Positions 3,111 to 20,456 of a stretch of DNA of 55,209 bases are shown piece after piece; the first letter of the stretch is position 1, and each line of letters begins with the position of its first letter. The notes under the pieces were generated by a model. The model worked only from the letters and a program-made list of their open reading frames with translations. It did no database searches and had not been told where the DNA came from. The DNA comes from Desulfocapsa sp. (GTDB lineage Bacteria > Desulfobacterota > Desulfobulbia > Desulfobulbales > Desulfocapsaceae), in the NCBI GenBank assembly GCA_013792135.1, contig VMSP01000165.1, forward strand, positions 1-55,209, in the 5' to 3' direction. A program made the translations under genes and the position numbers.

Positions 3111-3163
3111 AGTAGTACGTACAAACACACAAGTTCCCAAAAAAATTTAACAGGGTGGCGAAG

Positions 3164-3958
3164 ATGGAACAAGCGAAAGAAGCCAAAATAATTGCAATCG
3201 CCAACCAAAAAGGGGGGGTGGGTAAAACTACCTCCGCAGTTAATTTAGCAGCAGCATTGGCCAAAAAAAGAAAAAAAGTGCTTCTCGTAGATTCTGACCC
3301 CCAAGGAAACGCCTCCAGCGGCCTGGGAATCCACACAAGCGCCCTCAAACAACATCTCTACCACAGTTATACCGGAGGAGTTCCCTTAACGGACGTACTG
3401 ATAAAAACGAAAGTAACCAATCTTGTTGTCGCCCCCTCAAACATAGACCTGGTGGCTGCCGAGATAGAACTCATCTCCATGGAAAAGAGAGAATTTAATC
3501 TCAAAAAAATACTACAGACCGTTAGTAATCGTTTTGATTATATATTGATAGATTGCCCACCATCTCTGGGATTATTAACTATTAACGGACTAACGGCAGC
3601 ACACTCGGTATTAATCCCCATGCAATGCGAATACTACGCAATGGAGGGCCTGGCACAACTTGTAAAAACCATCAGGTCCGTTAAAAAGGCCTTCAATGAA
3701 GAGCTTTTTATTGAGGGCCTCTTACTCACTATGTATGATAAACGCAATAAACTAACCTATCAAGTGGCCGAAGAAGTCGCTAAACACTTTGGCGATCAAG
3801 TATTCAAGACAGTTATCCCTAGAAACGTAAGACTCAGCGAATGTCCAAGTCACGGTCAAACCATTGTTGAATATGATATCCGCTCAAGTGGGGCAATAGC
3901 ATATATGAACCTGGCTAGTGAATTTCTTAAACAACAGAGGCTTAATGTATGTCAGTAA
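3164..3958 (+). CDS. parA: Chromosome-partitioning ATPase ParA (Soj)
   Basis: Deviant Walker-A ATPase that forms nucleoid-bound dimers and moves ParB-parS complexes during origin segregation. The P-loop KGGVGKTTSAVNLA is near the N-terminus, followed by the Walker A' segment LLVDSDPQGN and Walker B LIDCPPSLG. A GTG at 3155 would add three residues, but ATG 3164 is preferred because AGGGTGG lies at a suitable distance upstream. The stop overlaps the parB start by 10 bp, implying coupled translation. Codon use is A/C-rich even though it is plus-coded. Confidence 0.95.
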   Translation: MEQAKEAKIIAIANQKGGVGKTTSAVNLAAALAKKRKKVLLVDSDPQGNASSGLGIHTSALKQHLYHSYTGGVPLTDVLIKTKVTNLVVAPSNIDLVAAEIELISMEKREFNLKKILQTVSNRFDYILIDCPPSLGLLTINGLTAAHSVLIPMQCEYYAMEGLAQLVKTIRSVKKAFNEELFIEGLLLTMYDKRNKLTYQVAEEVAKHFGDQVFKTVIPRNVRLSECPSHGQTIVEYDIRSSGAIAYMNLASEFLKQQRLNVCQ

Positions 3959-4833
3959 AAAAAACTGGTTTAGGGCAGGGCGTTAGTCTCCTTTTTGCCC
4001 AGGAAGATGAAGAGGAAAAATATTTCGAGTGTGATATCGATAAAATCATTCCCAATAAACATCAACCAAGAAGCTATTTTGAAGAACAGGGACTAGAGGA
4101 GCTCACTCAATCAATCGAAGAGCATGGAGTCATCCAACCTCTTGTCGTGACCAATCAACATGACGGCTATTATCAATTAATCGCCGGAGAAAGACGTTTG
4201 AGAGCCTCTCAACGAGCAGGATTAAAAAAAGTCCCCGTTATTGTCCGAGCTGTTGAGAACGATGATTCCCTGTTAGAACTAGCGCTCATTGAAAATATTC
4301 AACGAAAAGACTTGAACGTCATTGAAGAAGCAGAGGCCTACAACAAACTTATAGAAAAATTTAACTACACCCAAGAACAAGCAGCGCAAAGGGTGGGGAA
4401 GAAACGATCAACAATAACCAACATACTGAGATTACTACAACTTCCAGGATACATCAAAAATGATTTGGAACAGGGCGCCCTCACTGAAGGACACGCTCGG
4501 GTTCTCTTAAGGATTCTTGATACTCCAATAGAGCTTCAAAACTTACGGGATCAAATTATTCAAAAAAATCTCTCCGTACGGCAAACCGAGAAAAGTATAC
4601 GCAAAACAAAGGGGACAGGAAAACCGTCCATTTTGGCCAACCAAGCATCTCAGTCGGTTGAACTTTCTCAATCCTACTGTACTGCCCTGACAAATCAACT
4701 CACCAATGTATTACACTCAAAGGTTACAATCTCACAAAGTGGAAATCGCGGCAAGATTGAAATCGAATATTACTCACTGGACGACCTGGAAAGAGTCATA
4801 GAGCTGATCGCAGCAAGGCAGACAACAAACTGA
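3949..4833 (+). CDS. parB: Chromosome-partitioning protein ParB (Spo0J)
   Basis: CTPase and parS-binding clamp. The 294-residue protein has the ParB N-terminal domain with the CTP-binding motif GERRLRASQRAG, the ENIQRKDLNVIEEAEAY box, the helix-turn-helix segment TQEQAAQRVGKKRSTITNIL that reads parS, and a C-terminal dimerisation region. The KTGLGQGVSLLF start is the usual ParA-stimulating N-terminal peptide. It overlaps parA; a perfect parS lies 1.1 kb upstream. Confidence 0.95.
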   Translation: MSVKKTGLGQGVSLLFAQEDEEEKYFECDIDKIIPNKHQPRSYFEEQGLEELTQSIEEHGVIQPLVVTNQHDGYYQLIAGERRLRASQRAGLKKVPVIVRAVENDDSLLELALIENIQRKDLNVIEEAEAYNKLIEKFNYTQEQAAQRVGKKRSTITNILRLLQLPGYIKNDLEQGALTEGHARVLLRILDTPIELQNLRDQIIQKNLSVRQTEKSIRKTKGTGKPSILANQASQSVELSQSYCTALTNQLTNVLHSKVTISQSGNRGKIEIEYYSLDDLERVIELIAARQTTN

Positions 4834-4847
4834 AATAAAAGAACATA

Positions 4848-5171
4848 ATGGCATTATTACAACTTACTATAATTCCAAAAGGGACCTCAACTCCAAATCT
4901 TGGCGACTATGTTCTAACAATCCAGAAACGGCTGACGGATTTGGGTGCAATATTTACGCTCAACGATATGGGGACCTTAATAGAGGGTGAGGCAACAGAA
5001 CTTCTCAAGCTGGTCATCGCTCCCTATGAAAGCCCATTTGTTGAGGGAGTTGTACGGGTAGTAACTCAGATCACTATTGACGACAAAAGAGACAAAAAAG
5101 TGAAAATTGGTGATAAGACTCAATCAATTCTAAGCCGATATGTCTCACCGGAAACAAGCAACCATGACTAA
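4848..5171 (+). CDS. MTH1187/YkoF-type thiamine-binding family protein
   Basis: A 107-residue protein of the MTH1187 family (PF01910), small ferredoxin-fold tetramers; some relatives bind thiamine or hydroxymethylpyrimidine. Seen here: the N-terminal beta strand LLQLTIIPKG, the conserved IFTLNDMGTLIEG segment, and the acidic/basic middle RVVTQITIDDKRDKK. It follows parB by 14 bp and overlaps the next small gene by 8 bp, so it appears co-transcribed with a CxxC membrane peptide and a 4Fe-4S protein rather than with thiamine genes. Function in this setting is unknown. Confidence 0.8.
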   Translation: MALLQLTIIPKGTSTPNLGDYVLTIQKRLTDLGAIFTLNDMGTLIEGEATELLKLVIAPYESPFVEGVVRVVTQITIDDKRDKKVKIGDKTQSILSRYVSPETSNHD

Positions 5172-5313
5172 AAAAAACTCCATACCAATCTACCGATTCA
5201 TTCCGCTCATATTCTTCGTCATTCTTTTTCTAACTGGAATTGCACTGAACGAACCACAAAGAGTTTTGGAACAAGCATGGAATATCTGCCTGGAGTGCGT
5301 CGGAATAGGGTAG
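5164..5313 (+). CDS. CD1871A-type CxxC membrane micro-protein (49 aa)
   Basis: Small protein with a short basic N-terminus (MTKKNS), one predicted membrane helix (about residues 11-28, RFIPLIFFVILFLTGIAL) and a C-terminal tail carrying ICLECVGIG, ending four residues after the second Cys. This tail matches what I recall of the CD1871A family of CxxC micro-proteins, which have no assigned function. The ATG overlaps the stop of the preceding gene by 8 bp (translational coupling). The next gene encodes a membrane 4Fe-4S protein, so a role in membrane-associated redox or metal handling is an inference. Confidence 0.75.
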   Translation: MTKKNSIPIYRFIPLIFFVILFLTGIALNEPQRVLEQAWNICLECVGIG

Positions 5314-5335
5314 GTAGTAGAGCTTTCTATGATTG

Positions 5336-5366
5336 TAACTCTCTCTTTCTATAACTCTCTCTTTCT
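5336..5366 (+). repeat. Tandem duplication of a 15-base unit
   Basis: The unit TAACTCTCTCTTTCT occurs twice, separated by one base, in the gap between the CxxC micro-protein gene and the 4Fe-4S gene. It is pyrimidine-rich and looks like a slippage duplication. It may affect the spacing or leader of the downstream gene, which has a poor RBS. Confidence 0.6.
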
Positions 5367-5408
5367 GACAGAGGAAAAATAACAGATCAGTCACAAGAAG
5401 TCCTCATC

Positions 5409-6347
5409 ATGGTCATTTTTTATAATCTCATGGAAACTTTCAGAAAATTCATACAATTTATTTTCACACTGATAACGAATGGGTATCTCCTTTTTCCATG
5501 GACAAAAAACATCTATCAAGGACCATTAAAAGCACTTTGTTCACCAGGATTAAATTGTTACTCCTGTCCAGCATCAACCACATACTGTCCAATAGGGGCA
5601 ATTCAGCAATTACTCCTTGGAATACGTTTTTCCATTGAAACAGGATCATATTATTTTGGTTCATATGTTTTTGGAACCATAGGGATAATCGCATCATTAA
5701 CAGGAAGATTAACCTGCGGATGGCTTTGCCCGTTTGGATTTTTACAAGAACTCCTATACAAAATTTCTTCCTGGAAAAAAATTCAAATACCTCAATATCT
5801 AAGATATATAAAGTATTTAATGCTTATTTTCTTTGTTATCTTGCTTCCACTTATACTAACGGACCAATGGGGTATAGGCAAACCATGGTTCTGTAAGTTT
5901 GTTTGCCCAGCCGGTACTATTGAAGCAGGAATACCCATGCTCATTTTACAACCGGACCTCAGGGCAACTGTAGGATATCTTTTTTATAATAAACTTTTTT
6001 GGATGTTTTGCTTCCTTATCTGGAGTATCTTTTCAAGCCGTCCATTTTGCAAAACAACATGCCCTCTAGGTGCCTTTTACGGCATGTTTAATAAAATAAG
6101 CATACTCCAATTGCGCCTAAACAAAAAAAATTGCACTGATTGCGGTGCCTGCCTGCAGGTATGTCCCATGGATATTCAATTCAATAAAAACGTCAACAGT
6201 CCTGAATGCATACTTTGCATGCGCTGTATGACTGAAGCGTGTAAGTTTGAAGCCATATCAATACATTGCGCAGGACTACCCCTCTCAGTTCCACTTAAAA
6301 AAACAAGGGCACCAAAAATGGGTCTGTTACAATCTGACCAATCTTAA
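5409..6347 (+). CDS. Polyferredoxin-like membrane 4Fe-4S binding protein
   Basis: 312-residue membrane protein of the NapH/NosR/YccM-like 4Fe-4S superfamily. The N-terminus holds CSPGLNCYSCPASTTYCPIGA. Further Cys clusters are TCGWLCPFGFLQE, CKFVCPAGTIEAG and CKTTCPLGAFYG, embedded among about four or five hydrophobic helices. The C-terminus has two classical 4Fe-4S motifs, CTDCGACLQVCPMD and CILCMRCMTEACKFEA. Such proteins pass electrons across or along the membrane. Start is uncertain: Met at 5409 or at 5430, neither with a good RBS. It follows the CxxC micro-protein by 95 bp; the physiological partner is unknown. Confidence 0.85.
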   Translation: MVIFYNLMETFRKFIQFIFTLITNGYLLFPWTKNIYQGPLKALCSPGLNCYSCPASTTYCPIGAIQQLLLGIRFSIETGSYYFGSYVFGTIGIIASLTGRLTCGWLCPFGFLQELLYKISSWKKIQIPQYLRYIKYLMLIFFVILLPLILTDQWGIGKPWFCKFVCPAGTIEAGIPMLILQPDLRATVGYLFYNKLFWMFCFLIWSIFSSRPFCKTTCPLGAFYGMFNKISILQLRLNKKNCTDCGACLQVCPMDIQFNKNVNSPECILCMRCMTEACKFEAISIHCAGLPLSVPLKKTRAPKMGLLQSDQS

Positions 6348-6401: not shown

Positions 6402-6866
6402 ATGTTAACCAAAATAAAAACTATACTATATACAATAATTATTTTAGTTCTGGTGGTATCTACAACCTCTTTTGCGGAAATGAAAAGCACAAGTGGTGAA
6501 AAGGTAAGTCTACGGACAGGACCAGGTGAAAAATACAATGTAAAATGGGAGTTTGGGAATGGTTTTCCAGTAAAGATTCTTTCCAAAAAAGGAAAATGGA
6601 CAAAGGTTCAAGACTTTGAAAATGACAGTGGATGGGTTTATACTTCCATGCTCAACAACAAGCCTCACATCATTGTTAAAGTGAACAAAGGTAAAAATAA
6701 AAAAATCAATATACGAAGTGGCCCTGGACCCAAATATTCCGTCGTGGGGAAGGCATATTACGGTGTCGTCTTTGAAAAAAAAGAACAGAAAAAAGGGTGG
6801 GTAAAAGTAAGGCATGAATCTGGACTAGAGGGATGGATTGAAAAATCTCTGGTTTGGGGGTTTTAG
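6402..6866 (+). CDS. Secreted tandem bacterial SH3-domain protein
   Basis: 154 residues with a signal peptide (hydrophobic stretch ending STTSFA) and two SH3b domains: roughly residues 28-85 (VSLRTGPGEKYNVKWEFGNG) and 95-154 (INIRSGPGPKYSVVGKAYYG). Each carries the RxGPGxxY signature. Such proteins are periplasmic and often bind peptidoglycan. A frameshifted paralogue with the same layout and closely matching motifs (FENDxGWVY, WVKVRHESG, WGF/WGW end) lies at 45457. No clear RBS precedes the ATG. Confidence 0.8.
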   Translation: MLTKIKTILYTIIILVLVVSTTSFAEMKSTSGEKVSLRTGPGEKYNVKWEFGNGFPVKILSKKGKWTKVQDFENDSGWVYTSMLNNKPHIIVKVNKGKNKKINIRSGPGPKYSVVGKAYYGVVFEKKEQKKGWVKVRHESGLEGWIEKSLVWGF

Positions 6867-7346: not shown

Positions 7347-8909
7347 ATGCTGGAGCCTAAAATAATTTCTGCGCACCTCCAGGACTTAACCTGCCTCTAT
7401 GAAATAACCAAGGCACTTGCGACAGCACTCAACTTGAGTGATTGCCTGGAAAAAATCATGAAAACCCTGGCCGATCTAAAATCCATGGAAAATGGGACGA
7501 TCACGATTATCAACCCTTTTACCGGAAAACTGGAGATAGAAGTGGCGCACGGACTCACTCCAGAAAGTAAAAAGCGGGGAAAATATGTACTTGGTGAAGG
7601 AATCACCGGAAGAGTTGTAGCCTCGGGAGAACCAATAATTGTACCACATATTGCCAATGAACCACTCTTCCTCAACAAAACAGGGGCAAGGGGAGAAGTT
7701 ACCCATAAAAACAAATCGTTTCTCTGTGTCCCAATCAGAGATAAACAACAAATAATTGGTTCTCTAAGCGTTGACCGTATGTATAAAGAAGGCCTGAACC
7801 ATCAGGCTGATGCAGATTTACGGTTTTTAATTGTCCTCAGTGGACTCATTGGCCAGACCACCAGAAGAATTCAGATCGTAAACCGGGAACAAGAAAAATT
7901 ACGTTTAGAGAACCTGAAACTTAAACGTGAGCTTTCAGAAAAAAACAGAATCAATAATATTATTGGCAACTCAAACAAGATGCAAGAAGTGTATGATATG
8001 GTGCATCGAGTAGTCGATTCCAACGCCACCGTCCTCCTGCGCGGTGAATCCGGTACCGGAAAAACATTAGTTGCTAAATCCCTACATTATAATAGTCATC
8101 GGAAAAATAAATCATTTCTGGTTGTGAATTGTTCCGCACTTCCTGAAACACTTCTGGAAAGCGAACTGTTTGGACATGAAAAAGGGGCATTTACAGGGGC
8201 TACAGAGCGCAGGATTGGACGATTTGAACAAGCTGAAGGGGGAACTCTCTTCCTTGACGAAATTGGCGAAATAAGCCCATCTGTACAGGTAAAACTTCTT
8301 AATGTAGTCCAGGAAAGGAATTTTCAACGCTTGGGGTCAACACGCACCATACAATGCGATGTGCGGCTGGTTGCTGCCACTAACAAAGATCTGGAACGGG
8401 CAGTAAAGGAAGGAAGCTTTAGAGAGGATCTTTATTATCGCCTCAATGTCTTCCCGATTTATATGCCACCTCTACGAGAACGGCGTACCGATATACTCCT
8501 TCTGGCGGAGTATTTTTTAGAAAAATATTCACGCGAAAATATAAAAATTATTAAACGTATCTCTACCTCAGCAATAGATATGCTTATTCAGTATCACTGG
8601 CCAGGAAACGTGCGGGAACTACAGAACTGTATGGAAAGAGCTGTCCTTATCTGTGATGATGAATCTATAAAAAGCGTTCATCTGCCACCAACCCTGCAGA
8701 CATCGGATTCAAGTCAATTAAACAACTTGTTATCACTGGCCGGATCTGTGGAAAATTTTGAAAAAGAGCTGATTATAGAAAGCCTAAAACACCACAATGG
8801 AAACCAAACCAAAACAGCTAAATCCCTAAATACAAGTTTGAGGATTATCAATTATAAGATTCATCAATATAATATCGACCCCAAAAAATTTAAAATTGTT
8901 AAAAAATGA
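7347..8909 (+). CDS. NifA-like sigma-54-dependent transcriptional activator (GAF-AAA-Fis)
   Basis: 520-residue enhancer-binding protein. An N-terminal GAF sensor domain (about residues 15-175) and coiled linker (about 180-205) precede an AAA+ domain with Walker A GESGTGKT, the sigma-54 contact loop ESELFGHEKGAFTGA, Walker B GGTLFLDEIGE and the arginine-finger region FREDLYYRLNVFPI; a C-terminal Fis-type HTH (GNQTKTAKSLNTSLRIINYK) follows. Domain order matches NifA, but no nif gene is in the window, so the target is open. Its stop overlaps the queH start by 4 bp (ATGA). Confidence 0.88.
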   Translation: MLEPKIISAHLQDLTCLYEITKALATALNLSDCLEKIMKTLADLKSMENGTITIINPFTGKLEIEVAHGLTPESKKRGKYVLGEGITGRVVASGEPIIVPHIANEPLFLNKTGARGEVTHKNKSFLCVPIRDKQQIIGSLSVDRMYKEGLNHQADADLRFLIVLSGLIGQTTRRIQIVNREQEKLRLENLKLKRELSEKNRINNIIGNSNKMQEVYDMVHRVVDSNATVLLRGESGTGKTLVAKSLHYNSHRKNKSFLVVNCSALPETLLESELFGHEKGAFTGATERRIGRFEQAEGGTLFLDEIGEISPSVQVKLLNVVQERNFQRLGSTRTIQCDVRLVAATNKDLERAVKEGSFREDLYYRLNVFPIYMPPLRERRTDILLLAEYFLEKYSRENIKIIKRISTSAIDMLIQYHWPGNVRELQNCMERAVLICDDESIKSVHLPPTLQTSDSSQLNNLLSLAGSVENFEKELIIESLKHHNGNQTKTAKSLNTSLRIINYKIHQYNIDPKKFKIVKK

Positions 8910-10175: not shown

Positions 10176-11189
10176 TCACTCAATTTTTAATTCTCTCGTC
10201 AGGAGATCCATAACGGCAACTGAACAATCCTTATCTTTATACAGTATTTGATACACCTGTTCCAATATAGGCATATCAACATCAAGTCGCCTGGCAAGAT
10301 CATAAACAGATTGAGTTGTTTTAACCCCTTCGGCCACCATTTCCATCTCATCAAGAATAGCAGACAATTTTTTCCCCTGACCCAGTTTAAGTCCCACTGT
10401 TCGATTACGACTCAAATCCCCGGTGCAGGTAAGCACAAGATCACCAAGTCCACTCAAGCCAAAAAAGGTGAGGGGATCCGCACCCATTTTTACTCCAAGT
10501 CTTTTTATTTCTGCTAGTCCCCTGGTAATAAGCGCCGCCCGACTGTTGAGTCCATAACCAATTCCATCACTAATCCCTGCGGCAATGGCTACTATATTTT
10601 TCAAGGCTGCACTTATCTCAAGTCCTATCACATCACTGCTGGCATAGACTCGAAACCGCTCTGTGCCAAAAATATGCTGTAATTGTTTGGCTTTTTCTAT
10701 CTGCTTGCAACCAATTGTCACAGCTGTAGGCATACCTAAAGCCACTTCTTTCGCAAAAGAGGGTCCAGAAAGAACTGCAAGTGATATCTCTTTTTCACCT
10801 CTTGCTCCTAATATTTCGGTCATAACCTGAGTCATGGTCAGAAGGCTCTTATTTTCGATACCTTTTACTGCCGAAACGACGCAAGATCCTTCTTCAAGAA
10901 AAGGAGCAACCTCCTTAAATACCTTGCGAAACCCATGGGAAGGGACAACCATACAAACGGTTGTACATCCTTTTACGGCATCAGCCAGATCTTGGGTAGG
11001 TCGCAAAATATCAACAAATTGATATCCTGGAAGATATTTTTTATTTTCCCGATCCCGACTCAAGGTAGCCACATGGTCTGGATGATGGCCCCATAAGCTT
11101 GTCTGATAGCCTTTAGCAGATAAAATACCTGCAATGGCCGTACCCCAGGAACCAGCTCCGATTACTGCTATTTTTATATTGTTATTCAT
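10176..11189 (-). CDS. gpsA: NAD(P)H-dependent glycerol-3-phosphate dehydrogenase GpsA
   Basis: Reduces dihydroxyacetone phosphate to sn-glycerol-3-phosphate for phospholipid synthesis. The Rossmann motif [11 protein letters not shown] follows the chosen start MNNNIKIAV; later come [18 protein letters not shown], the catalytic-lysine region [11 protein letters not shown] and [16 protein letters not shown] longer open frame reaches 11255 but would lie within gyrA. ATG 11189 overlaps the gyrA stop by 8 bp, indicating coupled translation. 337 residues, typical length. Confidence 0.93.
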
Positions 11190-13671
11190 CTGTTGATTCG
11201 TTATCTGTTGATTCCTCGTCATCAGATTCATCGCGAGCCACGATATCCATAGCAACTACCTTTTCACCCTCTTCCAAATTTATCAGACGAACGCCTTGAG
11301 TTGTTCGGCCAATAATCCGCAAATTTTCAAGCGGCATTCGAATCATCTTTCCGGAATCAGCAATAAGAATAACCTCGCTCTCATTTTCAACCTGCATTGC
11401 GCCGATTACTGCACCATTACGCTCACTGGCCTTAATGGCAAAAATGCCCTTTCCGCCCCTTCGCTGAACACGATACTCATCAACCGGACTTCTTTTACCG
11501 TAACCATTTTCGGTCACCGTCAGAATAGAAGTCTCTGAGGAAATTACAATAGCGCCAACCAGAAAATCATTTTCTGCTAGATTAATTCCATTGACACCGG
11601 CAGCTGTACGCCCCATGGTACGAATATCTGACTCATGAAAACGAATGGATATGCCCTTGGAGGAGATAAGGAGAACGGTATCATCACCATTGAGGATATG
11701 GGCAGCTATAATCTCATCCCCTTCTTTGATGGTCAGAGCCCTTTTACCTCTTTTCAAAGGCTTACTGAACTCCTGGAGACTCGTTTTTTTCACCCGTCCG
11801 GATCGTGTAACCATCAGAATGGTTTTTTCTCCACCCTTGTCTGCTATATCGGAAATAGGCAGGATAGCTGCAACCTTCTCTCCTTCAGCCAACTCAAGAA
11901 GATTAACAATGGCCTTACCACGGGCCGTACGGCTTGCCATTGGAAGGTTATAAACCTTGCGCCAGAATATTTTTCCGTGATTGGTGAAAAAGAGGAAGGT
12001 ATCCAACGTAGAGGCCACATACAGATTGGTGACAAAATCTTCATCAATATTAGTTACACCACGAACGCCTTTTCCACCCCTGTGCTGTGACCGGTACTGA
12101 TTTACAGGATTCCGCTTTATATAACCTGAATGGGTAACGGTAACTGCCATATCCTCGGGTAAAATCATATCTTCAGGTAAGATCTCATCAACCGCATCAA
12201 TAATCTCTGTTCGCCTCTCATCCCCATAAGTCTCTTTAATTTCCACGAACTCATCACGAATAATCTGCATGACCAGTGCTTCATCACCCAGTATCTTTAC
12301 CAGCCTTTCTATTTCCAGAATGACCTCATTATAATCGCTTATGATCTTCTCTCGTTCCAAACCGGTAAGACGCTGCAGTCGCATCTCCAGTATCGATTGG
12401 GCCTGAATATCGGAAAATTCGAAACGTCTGATCAACTCCTCTTTGGCCTCCACGCCATTCTGGGAAGCGCGTATTAATTGCACAACCTCATCAAGGTTGG
12501 TAATGGCAATTTTGAGACCCTCCAACATATGGGCTCTCTCCTGGGCCTTATTCAGCTCAAAAGCTGTTCGTCGATAAACAATAGTTTTTCGATGAAGGAC
12601 AAAGTGTTCCAATATCTGTTTAAGGTTCAAAACCTCTGGTCTGTTATTGACAATGGCCAGTAAAATGATGCCGAATGAACGCTGCAAGGGTGTCATTTTG
12701 TGGAGCTGATTAATGACAATCTCCGCTATCTCATCCTTTTTCAGTTCCAGGACTACACGCGTTCCGTGTCTGTCCGATTCATCACGGACTTCTGAAATAG
12801 AGGTTATCTTTTTCTCTTTTACAAGAATGGCAATTTTTTCAACAAGGGTTGCCTTATTCTGTTGATAAGGAATTTCTGTAATAATGATAGCTTCACGCTT
12901 CCCATCCTTCATCTTTTCAATATGGGTCAGGGAGCGCATCAAAACACTGCCACGGCCTGTTTCATAGGCCTCTCTTATACCTGACCGCCCACAGATAAGT
13001 GCCCCGGTGGGAAAATCAGGCCCGGTAATATGGGTAATTAACTCATGAACAGTAATATCGGGATTATCGATCAGGGCAAGTAATCCATCCATGACTTCGG
13101 TCAGATTATGCGGTGGAATATTGGTTGCCATACCAACAGCAATACCGGAAGAACCGTTTATCAGGAGCGTGGGTATTTTACTGGGCATAACAGAAGGTTC
13201 TGTCATGGAATTATCATAGGTCGGCACAAAATCAACCGTTTCCTTATCCAGATCAGCCACGATCTCCCTGTCTATCCTGGTCATCCTGGCCTCGGTATAA
13301 CGCATAGCCGCAGGAGAATCACCATCCATGGAGCCAAAGTTTCCCTGACCGTCCACCAAAGGATAGCGCATGGAAAAATTCTGCGCCATGCGGACAATGG
13401 TATCATAGGCAGCGGTATCACCATGGGGATGATATTTACCGATGACATCACCGACAATACGCGCCGATTTCACATAAGGCCTGTTATAAAAAACTCCAAG
13501 TTCCCGCATGGCAAAAAGAGCCCGACGATGCACAGGTTTAAGCCCATCCCGTATATCCGGCAGGGCCCTGCCTATAATGACACTCATCGCATAAGCAAGA
13601 TAGGATTTTTGCATCTCCTTTTCGATGGATATGGTCGGGTATTTCTCTTTATTTTTTTCTTCCGTATTCAT
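11182..13671 (-). CDS. gyrA: DNA gyrase subunit A
   Basis: Breakage-reunion subunit of the type II topoisomerase that introduces negative supercoils. 829 residues: N-terminal [19 protein letters not shown], the quinolone-resistance region [16 protein letters not shown] with catalytic Tyr in [10 protein letters not shown], a coiled-coil with the C-gate, and a C-terminal beta-pinwheel with a GyrA box QRRGGKG plus the related QHRGGKG. The C-terminus is a highly acidic Glu/Asp/Ser/Thr tail. It follows gyrB on the same strand after 113 bp holding a perfect hairpin, and overlaps gpsA. Confidence 0.97.
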
Positions 13672-13736
13672 AAAAATTCTATTTATTAAACATTGATGGA
13701 TTCACAACAAATGCTAATTTGATTTGTCATCATCAG

Positions 13737-13765
13737 GGAATGAATTATAATTTGTAATTCATTCC
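13737..13765. repeat. Perfect 11-bp hairpin between gyrB and gyrA
   Basis: Arms GGAATGAATTA and TAATTCATTCC enclose a seven-base loop. On the minus strand it lies about 20 bp after the gyrB stop and 66 bp before the gyrA start. No T-run follows, so it is not a classical terminator; an mRNA processing or stability hairpin, or an operator, is possible. Confidence 0.6.
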
Positions 13766-13784
13766 ATTAAAAATGGTGAATATT

Positions 13785-16199
13785 TTAAATATCCAGAGAG
13801 GTTACCTCCAGGGCATGGCTCTGGATGAATTCTCTCCTTGGTTCCACTTTATCTCCCATAAGGGTGGTAAACATATCATCAGCCTGTTCCGCATCGTTGA
13901 TAGTTACCTGCACAAGAACTCTATTTTCCGGGTTCATGGTGGTATCCCAGAGTTGCTCTGGATTCATTTCTCCAAGACCCTTATAACGCTGAAGATGACT
14001 TCCTTTAAATGTTTCACTGCGGACAGTTTGCAGCATTTCACTCCAGTCCTTCGCGTGAATACCCTTATCCTGACCGGTGGTCGATTTCCTGACAATGGTA
14101 AACGTTCTCTTTAGATAGTCCCGGACAGAGGGAAATAATTCAAGTGCATGTCTGTACTCATTAATAAGAGGGATATTGGGTCCCAGGGTTATAAAAATAT
14201 GGGCCTTTCCTCTTATGGCAATATCTACCTCATAACATGTTGGTCGCCATCGACAGGAGCGAATGGGACCAATGATAAGGTCTTTGCTGGAAAGTTGATC
14301 AACAAGACCTTTTAAAAAAGATTTATCAGCAAATTGATCTGCCGAATGCACATCCTTTTCAAGGAGAAAATAGAGCATATCTTCCCATATATTCATCCTG
14401 TCAAGATAGGTAACTATTTTTTGATAAACTGACAATTTCCGTAGTTTTTCTACAAGGACATCGCCGACCAACTCCTTATCCTCTGTTCCATCTGTATGAA
14501 TCTCAATTATTTGGCTTGCTTCCATGAAAAGATGACTATTTAAATCTTCATCTTCCAAAAAATATTTTTCTTTTTTCCCTTTCCCCAGTCTGTATAACGG
14601 TGGTTGCCCTATATAGACATAACCACCTTCCACAAGCGGCAGCATCTGCCGATAGAAAAACGTGAGAAGAAGGGTACGGATATGAGCACCATCTACATCC
14701 GCATCGGTCATAATTATAACTTTGTGATAACGTAATTTTTCCACATCAAATTCATCTTTGCCAATTCCGCAACCCAGGGCGCCAATAAGATTTTTTATTT
14801 CCTCACTGCTTAAAATTCGGTCAAAACGGGCCTTTTCCACATTCATAATTTTACCGCGCAGAGGAAGAATAGCCTGAACAGATCTATCCCTTCCCTGTTT
14901 TGCTGAACCGCCTGCAGAATCACCCTCTACAATGAAAATTTCCCGTTTACTTGGCTCTTTCTCCTGACATTCTGCTAGTTTTCCGGCCATAAGCAGACTG
15001 GTAGACCCTTTTTTCCTAGACAGGTCTCGAGCCCTTTTAGCTGCTTCTCTGGCCCGTGACGCTTCAACGACTTTGATGAGTATTTTTTTGGCTTCTTGAG
15101 GATTTTGTTCAAGAAATATAGTTAATTTTTCCGAGCAGACAGATTCGACAATTGATTTTACCTCGGAATTTCCCAATTTAGTTTTGGTCTGCCCTTCAAA
15201 TTGGGGATCGGGTACACGAACAGAGATGACACAGGTAAGACCTTCACGCATATCATCCCCGTTCATTTTTTCTTTCAAACTTTTGGGAATAATATCGTCA
15301 CTGGCATATCTATTTATACATTTAGTGAGAGCGGCCCGAAATCCTGCTACATGTGTTCCACCTTCCCGTGTATTGATATTATTTACAAAAGAAAAAAGTC
15401 TCTCGGTATACCCATCAAAATATTGAAAGGCCAACTCAACCTGAACCATATCTTTTTCGCCAAAAACATAAATGGGTTCAGGGGTTATGGGAGTTCTTTT
15501 TCTATTCAGATATTCAACATACGATTTTATACCCCCTTCGGCATAAAAAGTGTCTTCAGCACCTGATCTTTCATCTTTTATATCAATACGAATTTCTTTA
15601 TTTAGATAGGACAATTCCCGTAGTCTGTTATTGATCGTTTCATAATCATAGACTGTTGTTTCGGTGAATATTTCAGGATCTGGTTTAAAGGTAATGCGTG
15701 TTCCTGTTGTCGTACTTTCTCCTATTACTTCCAGTTCGCCAACTTTTGCTCCATATTGGTACGACTGTCTGTATATTTTGCCATTCCTTTTTATTTCAGC
15801 GCTGGCTTTGATAGACAATGCATTAACAACCGAAACACCAACACCATGTAACCCACCGGAAACCTTATAGGATGAATGATCAAATTTTCCCCCGGCATGG
15901 AGTGTGGTCATTACCAGTTCCAAGGCTGACATTTTTTCAGTTGGATGCATATCAACGGGTATGCCCCGGCCGTTATCTTCAACAGATATAGAATTATCTT
16001 CATGAATTTTTACATGGATATTGGTACAATATCCAGCCAAAGCCTCATCTATACTATTGTCAACCACTTCCCATATAAGATGATGAAGTCCTGACTCAGC
16101 TGTATTTCCAATATACATGGATGGTCTTTTGCGAACTGCTTCTAAACCATCCAGAACTTTTATCTGTTCCGCACCGTATGCTTTATTTTCTTCTGTCAC
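13785..16199 (-). CDS. gyrB: DNA gyrase subunit B
   Basis: ATPase subunit of gyrase. 804 residues: GHKL ATPase motifs WEVVDNSIDEALAG, EDNGRGIPV and GGLHGVGVSVVNAL, a transducer domain, then the Toprim domain with EGDSAGGSAKQGRDR and ADVDGAHIRTLLLTFFYR, and a C-terminal tail with QRYKGLGEMNPEQLW. The start is GTG 16199, preceded by an AAAGGG-like sequence. A strong terminator-like hairpin lies only 26 bp upstream of the start, after dnaN. Confidence 0.97.
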   Translation of the reverse strand: MTEENKAYGAEQIKVLDGLEAVRKRPSMYIGNTAESGLHHLIWEVVDNSIDEALAGYCTNIHVKIHEDNSISVEDNGRGIPVDMHPTEKMSALELVMTTLHAGGKFDHSSYKVSGGLHGVGVSVVNALSIKASAEIKRNGKIYRQSYQYGAKVGELEVIGESTTTGTRITFKPDPEIFTETTVYDYETINNRLRELSYLNKEIRIDIKDERSGAEDTFYAEGGIKSYVEYLNRKRTPITPEPIYVFGEKDMVQVELAFQYFDGYTERLFSFVNNINTREGGTHVAGFRAALTKCINRYASDDIIPKSLKEKMNGDDMREGLTCVISVRVPDPQFEGQTKTKLGNSEVKSIVESVCSEKLTIFLEQNPQEAKKILIKVVEASRAREAAKRARDLSRKKGSTSLLMAGKLAECQEKEPSKREIFIVEGDSAGGSAKQGRDRSVQAILPLRGKIMNVEKARFDRILSSEEIKNLIGALGCGIGKDEFDVEKLRYHKVIIMTDADVDGAHIRTLLLTFFYRQMLPLVEGGYVYIGQPPLYRLGKGKKEKYFLEDEDLNSHLFMEASQIIEIHTDGTEDKELVGDVLVEKLRKLSVYQKIVTYLDRMNIWEDMLYFLLEKDVHSADQFADKSFLKGLVDQLSSKDLIIGPIRSCRWRPTCYEVDIAIRGKAHIFITLGPNIPLINEYRHALELFPSVRDYLKRTFTIVRKSTTGQDKGIHAKDWSEMLQTVRSETFKGSHLQRYKGLGEMNPEQLWDTTMNPENRVLVQVTINDAEQADDMFTTLMGDKVEPRREFIQSHALEVTSLDI

Positions 16200-16225
16200 T
16201 CTGTACCCTTTTGTTCAATTAAAAT

Positions 16226-16262
16226 AAAAATATCCATTCATGAAGTATGAATGGATATTTTT
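16226..16262 (-). terminator. Rho-independent terminator after dnaN
   Basis: A 16-bp perfect stem (AAAAATATCCATTCAT and its complement) with loop of five bases; on the minus strand it is followed by TATTTTAATT and includes its own T-run. It lies 23 bp past the dnaN stop and 26 bp before the gyrB start codon, so it can end dnaN transcription or attenuate read-through into gyrB. Confidence 0.8.
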
Positions 16263-16285
16263 AATAGTAACAATAGTTTATATTT

Positions 16286-17416
16286 TTATAGTTGCATGGG
16301 CATAATGATACTTAGAAAACCTTCATCAAAATCTGATTTCAAAAGACATGGACTGTTGTTTGAATTTATATAAGCATCTACTGTTTCACATTCCATCACT
16401 TGTAATGTTTCTATAAAAAAACGACAATTAAAACCAAGAGTGAGATTTTCTCCATTATAGATAATAGATTGCTCATCTTTTGCATTTCCTATATCCGCAT
16501 TTTGCGAAGATAATATCATTATATCATCCATTATTTCTAATTGAATAGTGTGATATATATCTTCTGTAAATAAGTTTATTCTTTTTAAAGATTCTAAAAA
16601 GGGAACTCTGTTTATTTTAATTTTATTTTGAAGTTGTACTGCATCTATAATAGCTCGGTATGGAGGAAATTCTCCTTGTTTTAAACGGATAACCATGATG
16701 GCATTATCATCTTTCACTACCAATTGTTTTTCTTCAAAAGAAATTTGTACATTATCACGATTTTCACAAAACTTTTTAAGTTCTTGAATTCCTTTTTTAG
16801 GAATAAGAGTCATCTTATTCAGAGTGAGATTATCTACATCTGCTGCAACATCTTTTTCCATAATAGAAAGACGATGACCATCAGATGAAATCATTCGTAT
16901 ATAATATCTGTCATTCTTTTTTTCTTTTTCAAAGAGAACACTGGTTAAGACATAATTATTTTCCTGTTCATTAGCTATTGAATAAATAATTTTATCAATA
17001 ATTTCTGAAAAAACATGGGCTTCAAAATTTACAAATGTTTCTTCATTAAAAGAAGGAAATTCAGGAAATTCATTACTGGGCATTCCTGCAAGATTATAAG
17101 TACTCAGTCCAGCATGGATAATAACCCAACTGTTCTCTGTTTCTTCTATACTTATAGATGAAGAACCAGATTCTCTGACTATTTCAAAAATTTTTTTACT
17201 GGGAAGAGTTATACTTCCAGAATTTTTTATTTCTGCTGGAATTTTAATTTTTAAACCAACTTCAAGATCGGTGGCTGTTAGATATAAAATATCATTATCT
17301 GTTTCAATAAGGATATTAGAAATAATAGCCAATGTACCTCTTTTATTGGTTAAATTTTGAAGGGCATTCAATCCTTCCAGAAAAACATTTTTTGAAATAT
17401 TAAAATTTAGAGCCAT
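16286..17416 (-). CDS. dnaN: DNA polymerase III beta sliding clamp
   Basis: Ring-shaped processivity clamp for replication. 376 residues with three repeats of the clamp fold. Recognisable segments: LNALQNLTNKRGTLAIISNI (domain 1), LTATDLEVGLKI, LPSKKIFEIVRE, SSDGHRLSIMEKD, KKGIQELKKFC and the conserved end FLSIIMPMQL. Very AT-rich codon use compared with later genes. Upstream is the AT-rich candidate origin; dnaA is not in the window. Confidence 0.95.
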   Translation of the reverse strand: MALNFNISKNVFLEGLNALQNLTNKRGTLAIISNILIETDNDILYLTATDLEVGLKIKIPAEIKNSGSITLPSKKIFEIVRESGSSSISIEETENSWVIIHAGLSTYNLAGMPSNEFPEFPSFNEETFVNFEAHVFSEIIDKIIYSIANEQENNYVLTSVLFEKEKKNDRYYIRMISSDGHRLSIMEKDVAADVDNLTLNKMTLIPKKGIQELKKFCENRDNVQISFEEKQLVVKDDNAIMVIRLKQGEFPPYRAIIDAVQLQNKIKINRVPFLESLKRINLFTEDIYHTIQLEIMDDIMILSSQNADIGNAKDEQSIIYNGENLTLGFNCRFFIETLQVMECETVDAYINSNNSPCLLKSDFDEGFLSIIMPMQL

Positions 17417-17711
17417 ATAAAAATAACCTTTATTTTTTATTTGTTTTATTATTGTTATTAATGAGGTTTATTTGTTTATACTTATCGTAACATTTGGATA
17501 TGAAAGACAAAACAATAAACAAATAAAAGTACATTAAATTTGTTTATTGTTAAAATAAAGTTTTCAACACATTATTAAACGAGTTTTCCAGTAAGTATTC
17601 ACTTTCTTCTGTTTAAAATTTATTAAAAAGAAAAATAACAATTTGATATATTTAACTTTTTAAGAATAATTCAAACAGGTAAAATATACAATAAAATAAT
17701 GGTTTTTTCCA
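17417..17711. other. Candidate origin of replication (AT-rich, inverted repeats)
   Basis: A strongly AT-rich 295-bp divergent gap upstream of dnaN. It contains a perfect 14-bp inverted repeat, AACAATAAACAAAT with ATTTGTTTATTGTT, near 17508-17548, plus further TTTGTTTA-type copies near 17440-17480. Gene orientation is largely minus to the left (dnaN, gyrB, gyrA, gpsA) and plus to the right. parABS lies 14 kb away. Only degenerate DnaA-box-like sequences such as TTTTCAACA were seen. An origin function is an inference. Confidence 0.45.
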
Positions 17712-18851
17712 GTGATTTTATTAAATAAAAACAGTTTAAGTCAGAGACTTTATGCTATTTTTTCGTCATCTCTGGATAAAGAAGTGTTTCCTGGGGCTGC
17801 CGTGGGAATTTCACAGTGGAATGGAAAAAAATATTGTCATTTTTATTATTATTATGGTCTGGCTCAATCATTTCCTATAAAAATTAAACTTAGCCGAAAA
17901 ATATTTTTTGATCTGGCCTCATTAACCAAAGCTTTAGCTACAGTTCCGGCATTATTATCGTTGATGGAAGATGGAAAAATCTCTTGGTCTTCAACGTTGA
18001 CGGAAATTTTTGGAAATATAATTAGAGAAGATAAAAAAAATATAAGTATAAAGCAGTTAATGTCGCATTCTTCAGGTTTACCAGCCCATAAGGAGTATTT
18101 TAAAAAATTATTAAAAGTGAATGAGAGTGAACGAAAAAAATGGTTATTTACTTCGATAATAGCAGAAAAATTAATATATTTTCCAGGAAAAGATTTTATT
18201 TATAGTGATCTGGGTTTTATGTTATTGGGATTTATTATAGAAAAAATATCAGGAAAAAACTTAGAGGATTATATACAAGAAAAAATATATAGACCACTTA
18301 ACCTCCATCATACTCTTTTTTATGGCGAAAAAGGTACTATAGAGAAACAAAAGTATGCGGCGACGGGAATATGTCCATGGACCGGCAAAATGCTGTCAGG
18401 GATGGTCCATGATGATAATTGTCGAGTCATGGGAGGGGTAGCTGGTCACGCAGGACTTTTTGGAAGCATAGACGGTGTTGTACAATGGTGTGACCAGCTC
18501 CTTTCTCAAATACAAGGAAGAACGAGACATCCATTTTTTGGAAATGAAATATTAAGACAGGCTATTAAAAAAGTGGGTGAATCATCCTGGACATCCGGTT
18601 TTGATACTCCATCCATAAAAGGATCAAGCAGTGGTAGATTTTTTTCCCCATTAAGTGTCGGTCACTTGGGTTACACTGGCACATCTTTTTGGATTGATCC
18701 GCAAAAAGACCTTATTGTTGTACTCTTAACTAATAGAGTTCATTCCAGCGCTAAAAATAATGAGTTAATCAGGAAATTCAGACCACTTTTTCATGACACT
18801 GTTATGGGTTGTCTGCAAAGAGAAAATAATAAAAAAACCCCTGAATCATGA
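17712..18851 (+). CDS. Serine hydrolase of the beta-lactamase class C/DD-peptidase family
   Basis: 379-residue penicillin-recognising-fold enzyme with the nucleophile motif SLTK (in FFDLASLTKALATVPALL), the second motif YSD in FIYSDLGFMLLG, and a C-terminal YTGTSFW replacing the KTG triad. The family includes esterases, D-Ala-D-Ala peptidases and beta-lactamases; the substrate cannot be assigned. No signal peptide is evident with this start. The start is GTG with no good RBS, so the N-terminus is uncertain. Very AT-rich (long A/T runs), like dnaN. Ends inside a bidirectional terminator. Confidence 0.8.
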   Translation: MILLNKNSLSQRLYAIFSSSLDKEVFPGAAVGISQWNGKKYCHFYYYYGLAQSFPIKIKLSRKIFFDLASLTKALATVPALLSLMEDGKISWSSTLTEIFGNIIREDKKNISIKQLMSHSSGLPAHKEYFKKLLKVNESERKKWLFTSIIAEKLIYFPGKDFIYSDLGFMLLGFIIEKISGKNLEDYIQEKIYRPLNLHHTLFYGEKGTIEKQKYAATGICPWTGKMLSGMVHDDNCRVMGGVAGHAGLFGSIDGVVQWCDQLLSQIQGRTRHPFFGNEILRQAIKKVGESSWTSGFDTPSIKGSSSGRFFSPLSVGHLGYTGTSFWIDPQKDLIVVLLTNRVHSSAKNNELIRKFRPLFHDTVMGCLQRENNKKTPES

Positions 18852-18873
18852 ATTCATAATTCAGGGGTTTTTT
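18833..18873. terminator. Bidirectional rho-independent terminator
   Basis: ACCCCTGAAT and ATTCAGGGGT arms flanked by seven A residues on the left and seven T residues on the right, so it works on either strand. It ends the serine hydrolase gene (whose stop lies in the hairpin) and the converging tusA-dsrE operon. Confidence 0.9.
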
Positions 18874-18904
18874 TATTATGCTGTAAAGCTAAAATTTTAT
18901 AAAA

Positions 18905-19078
18905 TTACCACCAACATACAGTCTTATCAGCAGCAATAATTTTAGCTACGAGCGTATCATAGTCAGGGGATTCCACATTAAGATCAAATTCATCTGCTTC
19001 ACGATCTCTGTTTAGAATTCCAACCAGTGTCTTCACATTATCATTAGGCTCTGAACGATATACTTGTAAAATTTTCAT
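18905..19078 (-). CDS. 57-residue protein ending Cys-Trp-Trp, last gene of the tusA-dsrE operon
   Basis: Not a family I can name. It starts MKILQVYRSEPNDNVK, is acidic, has a single Cys three residues from the end, and stops directly after CWW. A GGAG precedes the ATG at a slightly long distance. It follows the dsrE-like gene by 26 bp and is the last gene before the bidirectional terminator, so it is very likely expressed with the sulfur-relay genes. A C-terminal Cys is reminiscent of the swinging Cys arm of DsrC-type carriers, but there is no sequence similarity that I can see; this is speculation. Confidence 0.7.
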   Translation of the reverse strand: MKILQVYRSEPNDNVKTLVGILNRDREADEFDLNVESPDYDTLVAKIIAADKTVCWW

Positions 19079-19104
19079 TGCACATAACTCCTTTAATTAT
19101 TCAG

Positions 19105-19461
19105 CTATTCAGCACAGGCAGGTGGTGGCTCATTGGTTTGTTTAGGCAGACCGTAAGGAATGATAAAATCAGCATCCCGCATGGCCTCACCCAGCTCTTC
19201 CAGAGAAATTTCATCAATCAGTTTGTCACCTTCTTCATCCACGCAATTATCAGGAGCAGGGGCACCGCAGGAATAAACCTGACCTTCCATATCCTTAACC
19301 CAGGCGATATTCTCAGTCATATAGGTAGAAAAAGAAGGAAATTCTCCATTCATGATAACTGGAAAGGCATAATGATTTTCTACAGCTAAACCCAGACCAG
19401 AGCGAACACCATCACCATACATACGGTTAGCGATCAGAAAATATACTTTTAATGATTCCAT
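19105..19461 (-). CDS. DsrE/DsrF-like sulfur-relay family protein (118 aa)
   Basis: Likely DsrE-fold protein: N-terminal strand KVYFLIANRMYGDGVRSGLGLAVENHY-type segment, with Cys at residues 65 (YSCGAPAP), 73 (DNCVDEE) and 116 in a Pro-rich tail PPPACAE. The segment with Cys65 sits where DsrE-like proteins carry the sulfane-sulfur-binding Cys. It follows the second dsrE-like gene by 13 bp with a good RBS (AAGGAG). The C-terminal PPPACAE tail is unusual and could be a flexible thiol arm. Exact subfamily unknown. Confidence 0.7.
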   Translation of the reverse strand: MESLKVYFLIANRMYGDGVRSGLGLAVENHYAFPVIMNGEFPSFSTYMTENIAWVKDMEGQVYSCGAPAPDNCVDEEGDKLIDEISLEELGEAMRDADFIIPYGLPKQTNEPPPACAE

Positions 19462-19474
19462 TCTGTTTTACTCC

Positions 19475-19807
19475 TTATAGAACGATGTACTTGCCGCACT
19501 CGTCAAGCAGAGCGCCATGAAAAGCCTGAGTTCTCATCTGTTTAGCAGATAATCCAGCAGGAATATCTGCTGCTGAATCATATCCTTCGCATGTGTAGCT
19601 ATCAGCACAGATGGCTATATTATCTTCACCGCATTTTTCAGCCAATGCCTTAAATCTGGAATCTTTGGTGAGATGAATTGATTTGTAGGTGAAAAAAACC
19701 ATAGGTGTTTTTCCTGCCTTTTCAGCAGCATTAGCAATACCTACAACGTGCCGCATATTTTGCGGAGAGGTTACAAAAATAGCAAATTTGTTTGGATCTG
19801 CAGCCAT
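19475..19807 (-). CDS. DsrE family sulfur-relay protein (110 aa)
   Basis: Small DsrE-fold protein with the family's N-terminal FAIFVTSPQNMRHVVGIANA segment and a middle MVFFTYKSIHL. Cys residues are at 59, 67, 73 and 104; AICADSYTCEGYD is the likely active loop. Proteins of this kind carry persulfides between sulfurtransferases. It follows tusA by 43 bp with RBS CGGAGG. With TusA it probably forms a sulfur-transfer chain. Confidence 0.8.
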   Translation of the reverse strand: MAADPNKFAIFVTSPQNMRHVVGIANAAEKAGKTPMVFFTYKSIHLTKDSRFKALAEKCGEDNIAICADSYTCEGYDSAADIPAGLSAKQMRTQAFHGALLDECGKYIVL

Positions 19808-19850
19808 TGGCTTTATCCTCCGTTAGAGAAAAATACGAAAATGGGAAAAA

Positions 19851-20108
19851 TCAACCTTTTTTAACAAAGAAGCTGATATAGCCAGACTGCTCTTTCTCGC
19901 CCAGGTATTCATGTCCTCCACGGGCACACCAACCTGGAATATCGTTACGTGAACCAGGATCAGTACCGTCGATTTGTAAAATCTGACCAGATGCAATCTT
20001 GCCAATCTCTTTTTTAGTACGAAGAAGGGGCATTGGACAACTTAATCCTTTTGTGTCAAGTGTAGCTGCTATTGCCAGTCCTTCTGGGGCAACCTTGATG
20101 TCACTCAT
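19851..20108 (-). CDS. tusA: TusA/SirA-family sulfurtransferase
   Basis: Carrier of protein-bound persulfide. 85 residues with the canonical LDTKGLSCPMPLLRTKKEI motif; the acceptor Cys is residue 24 in the CPxP signature. A second Cys lies in GWCARGGHEYLG near the C-terminus. RBS TGGAGG precedes the start. It is first in an operon with two DsrE-like proteins and divergent from a YeeE/YedE transporter, a combination seen in sulfur-oxidising and disproportionating bacteria. It need not be the tRNA-thiolation TusA. Confidence 0.9.
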   Translation of the reverse strand: MSDIKVAPEGLAIAATLDTKGLSCPMPLLRTKKEIGKIASGQILQIDGTDPGSRNDIPGWCARGGHEYLGEKEQSGYISFFVKKG

Positions 20109-20226
20109 TTAATTTTCCTCCAAAAAAATAATGTAATTAGGTATAAATTTTTTTTATACCAGAAATAAAAATACATATTCAGATGTTGAATCTAAACCTG
20201 AATAATGAATAAATCAACCCTTGTGA

Positions 20227-20255
20227 CCTATACTTTAGCAAAGAATATCTGTCAA
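20227..20255 (-). promoter_or_regulatory. Sigma-70 promoter for the tusA-dsrE operon
   Basis: On the minus strand: consensus TTGACA, 17-base spacer, TATAGG. It lies about 120 bp upstream of the tusA start, leaving a long 5' leader. Confidence 0.75.
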
Positions 20256-20295
20256 GGGCAAAATGAATGACTATTCACGGTGTGTTTTAACTGTA

Positions 20296-20336
20296 ATGCA
20301 TTGTATTTATATATTATTTATATAAATACAATGCAT
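20296..20336. repeat. Perfect 18-bp inverted repeat between divergent promoters
   Basis: Arms ATGCATTGTATTTATATA and its exact complement enclose a TTATT loop. It lies between the two divergent promoters, about 40 bp from the minus -35 and 31 bp from the plus -35. It could be an operator, a cruciform or an RNA hairpin; no T-run follows. Confidence 0.7.
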
Positions 20337-20366
20337 AAATGCCGGCCTCGTTTATCTCTTAGATGC

Positions 20367-20395
20367 TTGACAAAACTTGTCTTCGAGGGTAAAGA
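20367..20395 (+). promoter_or_regulatory. Candidate promoter for the YeeE/YedE transporter
   Basis: Consensus -35 TTGACA, 17-base spacer, then TAAAGA as a weak -10. It lies about 60 bp upstream of the ATG. Confidence 0.5.
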
Positions 20396-20456
20396 AAATT
20401 TTGTTTATTCTGTAAAAAGGTTTTTAGCATTTTTTTGATTAAAAAAAGGGGGGGAC

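Follow-up and report, generated by a model that had tools for sequence, protein, structure and literature searches.

A CxxC micro-protein of the CD1871A family and a NapH-like 4Fe-4S membrane protein form one unit with a likely thiol-redox setting

Why should a thiamine-binding-type protein, a one-helix peptide of 49 residues and a 4Fe-4S membrane protein be encoded one after another, and what might they do together? The question is posed by a locus in the window, by which we mean the whole 55,209-nucleotide stretch of DNA analysed here. The original prediction saw in the three genes a single undescribed membrane redox or metal-handling system, and all three were confirmed at 4848-6347 (Table 1). 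The first two open reading frames share 8 nt if the peptide begins at the ATG given in the table; an in-frame ATG upstream, at 5140, would give a form of 57 residues. The first protein passes both PF01910 (74.8 bits, cut-off 24.9) and TIGR00106 (66.4 bits, cut-off 54.7). The micro-protein, MTKKNSIPIYRFIPLIFFVILFLTGIALNEPQRVLEQAWNICLECVGIG, is built from a basic N-terminus, a single hydrophobic stretch and a C-terminal CLECVGIG. The "at least five Cys clusters" predicted for the membrane protein are present as one group of four cysteines, three CX3CP motifs and two ferredoxin motifs.

Table 1. Genes and cysteine motifs of the locus, with positions in the window
Feature	Position	Strand	Remarks
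parA	3155-3958	+	lineage-specific upstream neighbour
parB	3949-4833	+	lineage-specific upstream neighbour
PF01910/MTH1187 thiamine-binding-type protein	4848-5171	+	107 aa
CD1871A-family micro-protein	5164-5313	+	49 aa, ATG at 5164
Micro-protein motif Cys42-Leu-Glu-Cys45	5287-5298	+	C-terminal CxxC
NapH-like membrane 4Fe-4S protein	5409-6347	+	312 aa
NapH-like C44, C50, C53, C60	5538-5588	+	predicted outer face; gapped or substituted in E. coli NapH
NapH-like C103/C107 CX3CP	5715-5729	+	predicted inner face; aligned with NapH CSWVCP
NapH-like C162/C166 CX3CP	5892-5906	+	predicted outer face; WEWINP in E. coli NapH
NapH-like C214/C218 CX3CP	6048-6062	+	predicted inner face; aligned with NapH CGHICP
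NapH-like two-cluster ferredoxin domain, C242-C278	6132-6242	+	Fer4_9/Fer4; predicted cytoplasmic
SH3-domain protein	6402-6866	+	PF06347, 95.7 bits; kept downstream neighbour in the lineage
GAF-sigma54 activator	7347-8909		two genes 3' of the module

The micro-protein belongs to a family that already has a name. It scores 38.7 bits (cut-off 32) against NF040920, the NCBIfam model "CD1871A family CXXC motif-containing protein", aligning over positions 5-38 of the 38 in the profile; the model description gives no function. The expectation that so short a gene would be easily missed was thus only half right, as NCBI has a model for it. "Undescribed" must likewise yield to the NCBIfam name, and stands to the extent that a literature search for the CD1871A family, with many journals outside it, found no paper; neither "CD1871A" nor "NF040920" occurs in the main text of a 2026 review (PMC13188914). 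What we add to the family are its pairing with a NapH-like protein, its UGA forms and its linkage to thioredoxins.

Matches to NF040920 with E values up to 0.001 were found in 38 of the 93 genomes of the window's family-level group (32 over the cut-off), in 80 of 394 genomes sampled from its phylum (49 over the cut-off), in 47 of 293 from the class of a Clostridiaceae MAG (45 over the cut-off) and in two of 198 from the class of a Sedimentisphaerales MAG (one over the cut-off), with none in the 14 control genomes in each of the four scans. Judging from named relatives, the phylum would be Desulfobacterota and the two classes Clostridia and a planctomycete class. Among named genomes, the best 80 of 109 loci include representatives of Desulfobacterota, Clostridiaceae, Spirochaetales, Aminicenantes, Sedimentisphaerales and Christensenella. 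The window's genome carries two copies of the micro-protein, the second scoring 30.8 bits, under the cut-off.

Gene order was compared at 176 loci, the window's own excluded. Sixty loci from the phylum sample (of 82 places) and the best 80 named loci make 140, of which 130 are distinct; the 46 further loci comprise 45 of the 49 places in the Clostridia class (G778, G523, G695 and G490 being left out, the last identical to L126) and one of the two places in the Sedimentisphaerales-MAG class, the other being L158. A family-level set, 31 of 46 places read with their flanks, overlaps the other sets. A NapH-like gene adjoins the micro-protein at 172 of the 176 loci, in several phyla (128 of the 130 distinct loci and 44 of the 46 further ones), and at all 31 loci read for the family-level set. 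It usually lies 3' of the micro-protein and in a few cases 5' (L107, L011, L012). The unpaired loci are L070, where a search of 1.8 kb revealed no NapH-like gene, L199 and L294, which lie at contig ends, and L293, whose flanks are without such a gene. We conclude that the micro-protein and the NapH-like protein are one unit. The neighbourhood comparison that had been proposed as a check on the module thus finds the association recurring, and the notion of one membrane redox system is upheld by this adjacency and by a setting in which thiol-disulfide chemistry is frequent.

Might the adjacency be a passively inherited gene order with no joint function? The parAB and SH3 neighbours of the window's copy are lineage-bound, as such an explanation would have it. 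The pairing itself extends across several phyla, NapH-TlpA fusions occur, and L293, the sole member with intact flanks that has no CxxC, also has no NapH-like gene in its flanks; against these observations we find passive inheritance scarcely credible.

The remaining neighbours are less constant. Relatives of the PF01910 protein lie directly 5' of the pair at 37 of the 130 loci and none was detected at the 46 further loci, all but one from the Clostridia-class sample, so that this protein, predicted to be part of the module, is better described as an optional partner. Downstream of the pair are an SH3 protein at 24 of the 130 loci, a protein that we take to be RdgB-like at 21 and relatives of the GAF-sigma54 activator at 11; the window's activator scores 518.6 bits against the NifA model, slightly below the cut-off of 528.85. 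The two genes preceding the module, presumably parA and parB from their ORF sequences, had been thought to be there perhaps by chance. They are instead part of a lineage-level neighbourhood, with ParB-like proteins at 14 and ParA-like proteins at 13 of the 130 loci. Genes that we take from their ORFs to be gyrA-, gyrB- and dnaN-like occupy the minus strand at about 11182-20400, and next to them the cumulative GC skew reaches its minimum, near 18-20 kb, and there is a stretch of 28% GC. This suggests that the region is that of the chromosome origin, which would account for parAB close by.

The PF01910 neighbour bears on a second alternative, in which the pair handles a metal or cofactor, the CxxC binding a metal that the Fe-S protein loads or reduces. 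CxxC motifs can indeed also bind metals. No metal transporter or chaperone was recognised on reading the recurring neighbours, and the UGA that replaces a cysteine codon in some members (see below) points to redox chemistry; metal handling is in our judgement very unlikely.

The CxxC motif of the micro-protein is present, in five cases as UxxC, in 183 of 185 family members, one of which (L276) runs only a few residues beyond it; the two without it are L293 and L294. Positive charge is greater on the N-terminal than on the C-terminal side of the hydrophobic stretch in 176 of 185 micro-proteins, duplicate rows included, and the CxxC is accordingly predicted to lie outside. At L293, from the Clostridia class, SLHY takes the place of CxxC, and the motif and the NapH-like gene both seem to have been lost naturally. 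Two weak family-level matches, G050 and G051, end before the motif. At L158, in a Sedimentisphaerales MAG, the micro-protein forms the C-terminus of a 269-residue protein (positions 4269-5078 of that locus; 25.4 bits, under the cut-off), which by eye is probably exported, and a TlpA-like gene comes after the NapH-like gene. This protein had no match in a Pfam search, and the idea that its N-terminal part is a DsbD alpha domain was dropped when searches of Pfam and of PDB sequences yielded no usable result. Some other NF040920 matches lie in long open frames, which were considered as fusions and rejected, those read being unrelated in-frame sequence upstream.

The partner resembles NapH and departs from it in its cysteines. 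Pfam recognises two copies of Fer4_5 (PF12801), Fer4_9 and Fer4, and BLAST aligns the protein with E. coli NapH at an E value of 1e-10; this alignment identifies the two CX3CP motifs and the C-terminal two-cluster ferredoxin domain of NapH. Its NCBIfam matches (25 of 35 listed) include TIGR02163 (NapH/MauN) at 62.4 bits, far from the cut-off of 213.05, and we therefore call the protein NapH-like and not NapH. Across 62 sequences C50, C53, C60, C103, C107, C162, C166, C214 and C218 are invariant and C44 is at least 90% conserved; in the ferredoxin domain C242, C245, C248, C252, C267, C270 and C273 are invariant and C278 is at least 90% conserved. Six of these cysteines, C44, C50, C53, C60, C162 and C166, are absent from E. 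coli NapH, the sole NapH compared. Their predicted placement on the outer face follows from the helix count and from what we take to be the topology of NapH. An AlphaFold model of the window's protein (62 rows) has a mean pLDDT of 83.9 and a pTM of 0.81; it is weak at residues 21-60, falling below 50 at residues 36-48 in the region of the four outer cysteines, and over the last 20 or so residues. A Foldseek search with this model returned 19 matches, none with E ≤ 0.001, headed by ferredoxin domains and including no membrane homologue from the PDB. Neither PF02683, the DsbD transmembrane domain, nor an FMN-binding family is among the 15 Pfam families that match the protein with E values up to 1.

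The kinship with NapH invites the reading that the pair is a quinol dehydrogenase of the NapGH type, drawing electrons from the quinol pool, with the micro-protein as an outgoing carrier or an assembly subunit. NapH-like proteins have been proposed to take electrons from quinols, according to sections of two earlier studies (PMC5928378, PMC8238504), and the BLAST match speaks for such a role. The six cysteines without a counterpart in the one NapH compared do not, and at L136 a gene for an NAD- and FAD-binding 2Fe-2S reductase, with relatives at three of the 130 loci, lies upstream of the pair and suggests a cytoplasmic donor at that locus. We consider a quinol dehydrogenase unlikely.

The likely setting of the unit is thiol-redox, as its neighbours indicate. 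A TlpA-like thioredoxin often belongs to the same operon as the pair, namely at 69 of the 176 loci, counting two NapH-TlpA fusions. At 31 of the 130 distinct loci a TlpA-like CxxC gene lies directly beside the pair on the same strand; at the other 99, as with the window's copy, there is no such adjacent gene. Same-strand midpoints in this set fall in two bins, 26 at -1 to 0 kb and seven at +1 to +2 kb, all other bins being empty, perhaps somewhat too cleanly, as the profile was built from seven proteins beside the pair and favours neighbours of that kind. On the opposite strand a thioredoxin-like gene is found at nine of the 130 loci, with nine midpoints at +1 to +3 kb and one at -5 to -4 kb. 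The 46 further loci include 36 with an adjacent TlpA-like gene (among them L294, with no NapH-like gene in view) and the two fusions; at the 45 Clostridia-class loci all 37 TlpA-like matches, fusions included, have their midpoints between -1 and +2 kb. In the fusions, L250 and L251, Pfam finds Fer4_5 together with Redoxin/AhpC-TSA, and in L250 an extra hydrophobic stretch, seen by eye, separates the ferredoxin from the TlpA domain, which fits a ferredoxin domain inside and a TlpA domain outside. Mapped on a FastTree phylogeny of the NapH-like proteins (163 rows), the TlpA label requires no fewer than 12 changes, of which supported branches force nine; the linkage is thus not one inherited neighbourhood.

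The second copy in the window's genome lies in an operon of the order DsbB (PF02600), DsbA-like (PF13462), TlpA-like, micro-protein, NapH-like. The clusters to which these DsbA- and DsbB-like proteins belong, each named by Pfam from the one protein of the window's genome, recur at 15 and 14 of the 130 loci, respectively, always on the same strand and at median distances of -1.3 and -1.7 kb. Elsewhere the pair is found with CcsB (L072) or an FdhE-like protein (L203). The presence of DsbA-like proteins alongside raises the possibility of the opposite direction, in which the module would re-oxidise outer thioredoxins in the manner of DsbB, passing electrons inwards to ferredoxin or quinone, and CxxC pairs work either way in principle. 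The DsbB-like proteins in the same operons imply, however, that oxidation is already served there. The TlpA-like proteins score too low for the curated cut-offs set for the named ResA and TlpA models, and the four tested match the ResA model best; ResA is a reductant. Low-potential 4Fe-4S centres, moreover, are better suited to reduction. Re-oxidation is on these grounds an improbable direction.

Five micro-proteins from two phyla have UGA at the first cysteine codon of the motif, the window's copy having Cys. Four (L066-L069) come from four genera of one family in the phylum sample and the fifth (L249) from the Clostridia class; in all five the conserved remainder continues after the UGA up to a normal stop codon. 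Replacement of the first cysteine in this way points to a redox-active pair. In the usual bacterial SECIS element, as described in PMC13188914, a G stands early in a small loop that lies 16-37 nt downstream of the UGA. All five genes can form a SECIS-like hairpin, a 6-bp stem closing a GGGU loop that starts 18 nt after the UGA. The stem is in part fixed by the coding of GIG or GVG, so that the telling half is the part after the stop codon. The 19-nt hairpin segment has a folding energy of -9.5 to -11.6 kcal/mol in L066-L069 as against -0.6 to -6.2 kcal/mol in six Cys relatives; in 45-nt folds L066 adopts another structure and the ranges overlap (-13.0 to -16.1 kcal/mol for UGA forms, -7.6 to -15.3 kcal/mol for Cys forms). 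The hairpin of L249 is weak (-5.0 kcal/mol when 40 nt are folded) and disappears when longer segments are folded. SelB was found over its cut-off in all five UGA-form genomes, but also in seven of eight and four of seven Cys-form genomes in two sets, and its presence is therefore permissive and not specific. At L066, L068 and L069 the region upstream, at -1.6 to 0 kb, encodes a protein of thioredoxin fold that has no CxxC and, by eye, carries TPR-like repeats. As a separate observation, the minus strand of the window at 306-1025 holds a frame that we take to be peroxiredoxin-like, with an in-frame TGA at the position expected for the active cysteine (FTFV-U-ATE, frame residue 84); it is probably a selenocysteine peroxiredoxin of known kind.

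The two genes are paired at nearly all loci, a thioredoxin gene is often linked to them and twice fused to the NapH-like one, UGA stands for a Cys codon in some micro-proteins, and the NapH-like protein has cysteines not seen in E. coli NapH. On these observations we favour, as the probable reading of the sequences, a transmembrane Fe-S conduit that would reduce extracytoplasmic thioredoxins and act as a functional analogue of CcdA/DsbD built from unrelated parts. Its sidedness, the ligation of its clusters, the flow of electrons and their direction, and the electron donor are what we infer in proposing the following route. The NapH-like protein would take up electrons through its two-cluster ferredoxin domain, on the cytoplasmic side, and hand them to Fe-S centres on the inner-face pairs C103/C107 and C214/C218. 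From there they may reach the outer-face cysteines C44/C50/C53/C60 and C162/C166, acting as putative ligands of further Fe-S centres, and would go on to reduce the micro-protein at its CxxC or UxxC outside the cytoplasm. Thiol-disulfide exchange could finally carry them from the micro-protein to thioredoxins of the TlpA, ResA or DsbA type or to other outside thiols.

Is the conduit found where DsbD and CcdA are not? In the phylum sample PF02683 was detected in 23 of the 40 carriers, compared with 36 of the 40 non-carriers (Fisher p 0.0018); in the Clostridia-class sample the numbers were 12 of 40 and 21 of 40, respectively (p 0.069). It is rarer in carriers overall (combined CMH p 0.0004, for hand-picked genomes uncorrected for kinship and genome size). 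Of the 17 carrier genomes to which the named loci led, for which no completeness is stated, 11 gave no PF02683 match. The window's genome has two PF02683 genes, so that there the module is not simply a replacement. We are evenly divided over the larger claim, namely that many anaerobes possess an undescribed transmembrane thiol-reducing system as a substitute or reserve for DsbD/CcdA. In it a polyferredoxin with an outer-face Fe-S centre would deliver electrons one at a time to the CxxC, or selenocysteine UxxC, of a membrane peptide some 45-60 residues long, and thence to extracytoplasmic thioredoxins; a new selenoprotein family with forms in two phyla would be part of it. The practical question is how, in anaerobes without DsbD/CcdA, outer thioredoxins, cytochrome c and further cysteines are maintained in the reduced state. 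The pair is a directly testable candidate for this task, one that would give a function to an NCBI family known by name only. If the proposal is true, Fe-S clusters and a peptide-borne thiol or selenothiol do across the membrane what DsbD does with cysteine pairs.

The module may be compared with several known systems. With CcdA, DsbD and ScsB (PF02683) it would share the job of moving cytoplasmic electrons to extracytoplasmic thioredoxin-like proteins, and it shares their setting, its neighbours including TlpA-like, DsbA-like and CcsB genes; it differs in having Fe-S motifs in place of membrane cysteine pairs, a separate CxxC micro-protein and no PF02683. Fe-S chemistry also reduces a disulfide in the chloroplast ferredoxin:thioredoxin reductase, a soluble enzyme not known to be related in sequence. 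With NapH, NosR, PceC and RdhC (PF12801) the module has in common a membrane part with two CX3CP motifs, as these are set out in sections of PMC5928378, and with NapH the C-terminal two-cluster ferredoxin domain as well; relative to E. coli NapH it has four cysteines in the N-terminal region and one extra CX3CP motif. Unlike the flavinylated NapH-like systems NosR and RdhC, as treated in parts of PMC8238504, the NapH-like protein has no FMN-binding Pfam match. Its partner, finally, is neither a flavoprotein nor a nitrate reductase, as in those systems, but a CxxC micro-protein, often joined by a thioredoxin.
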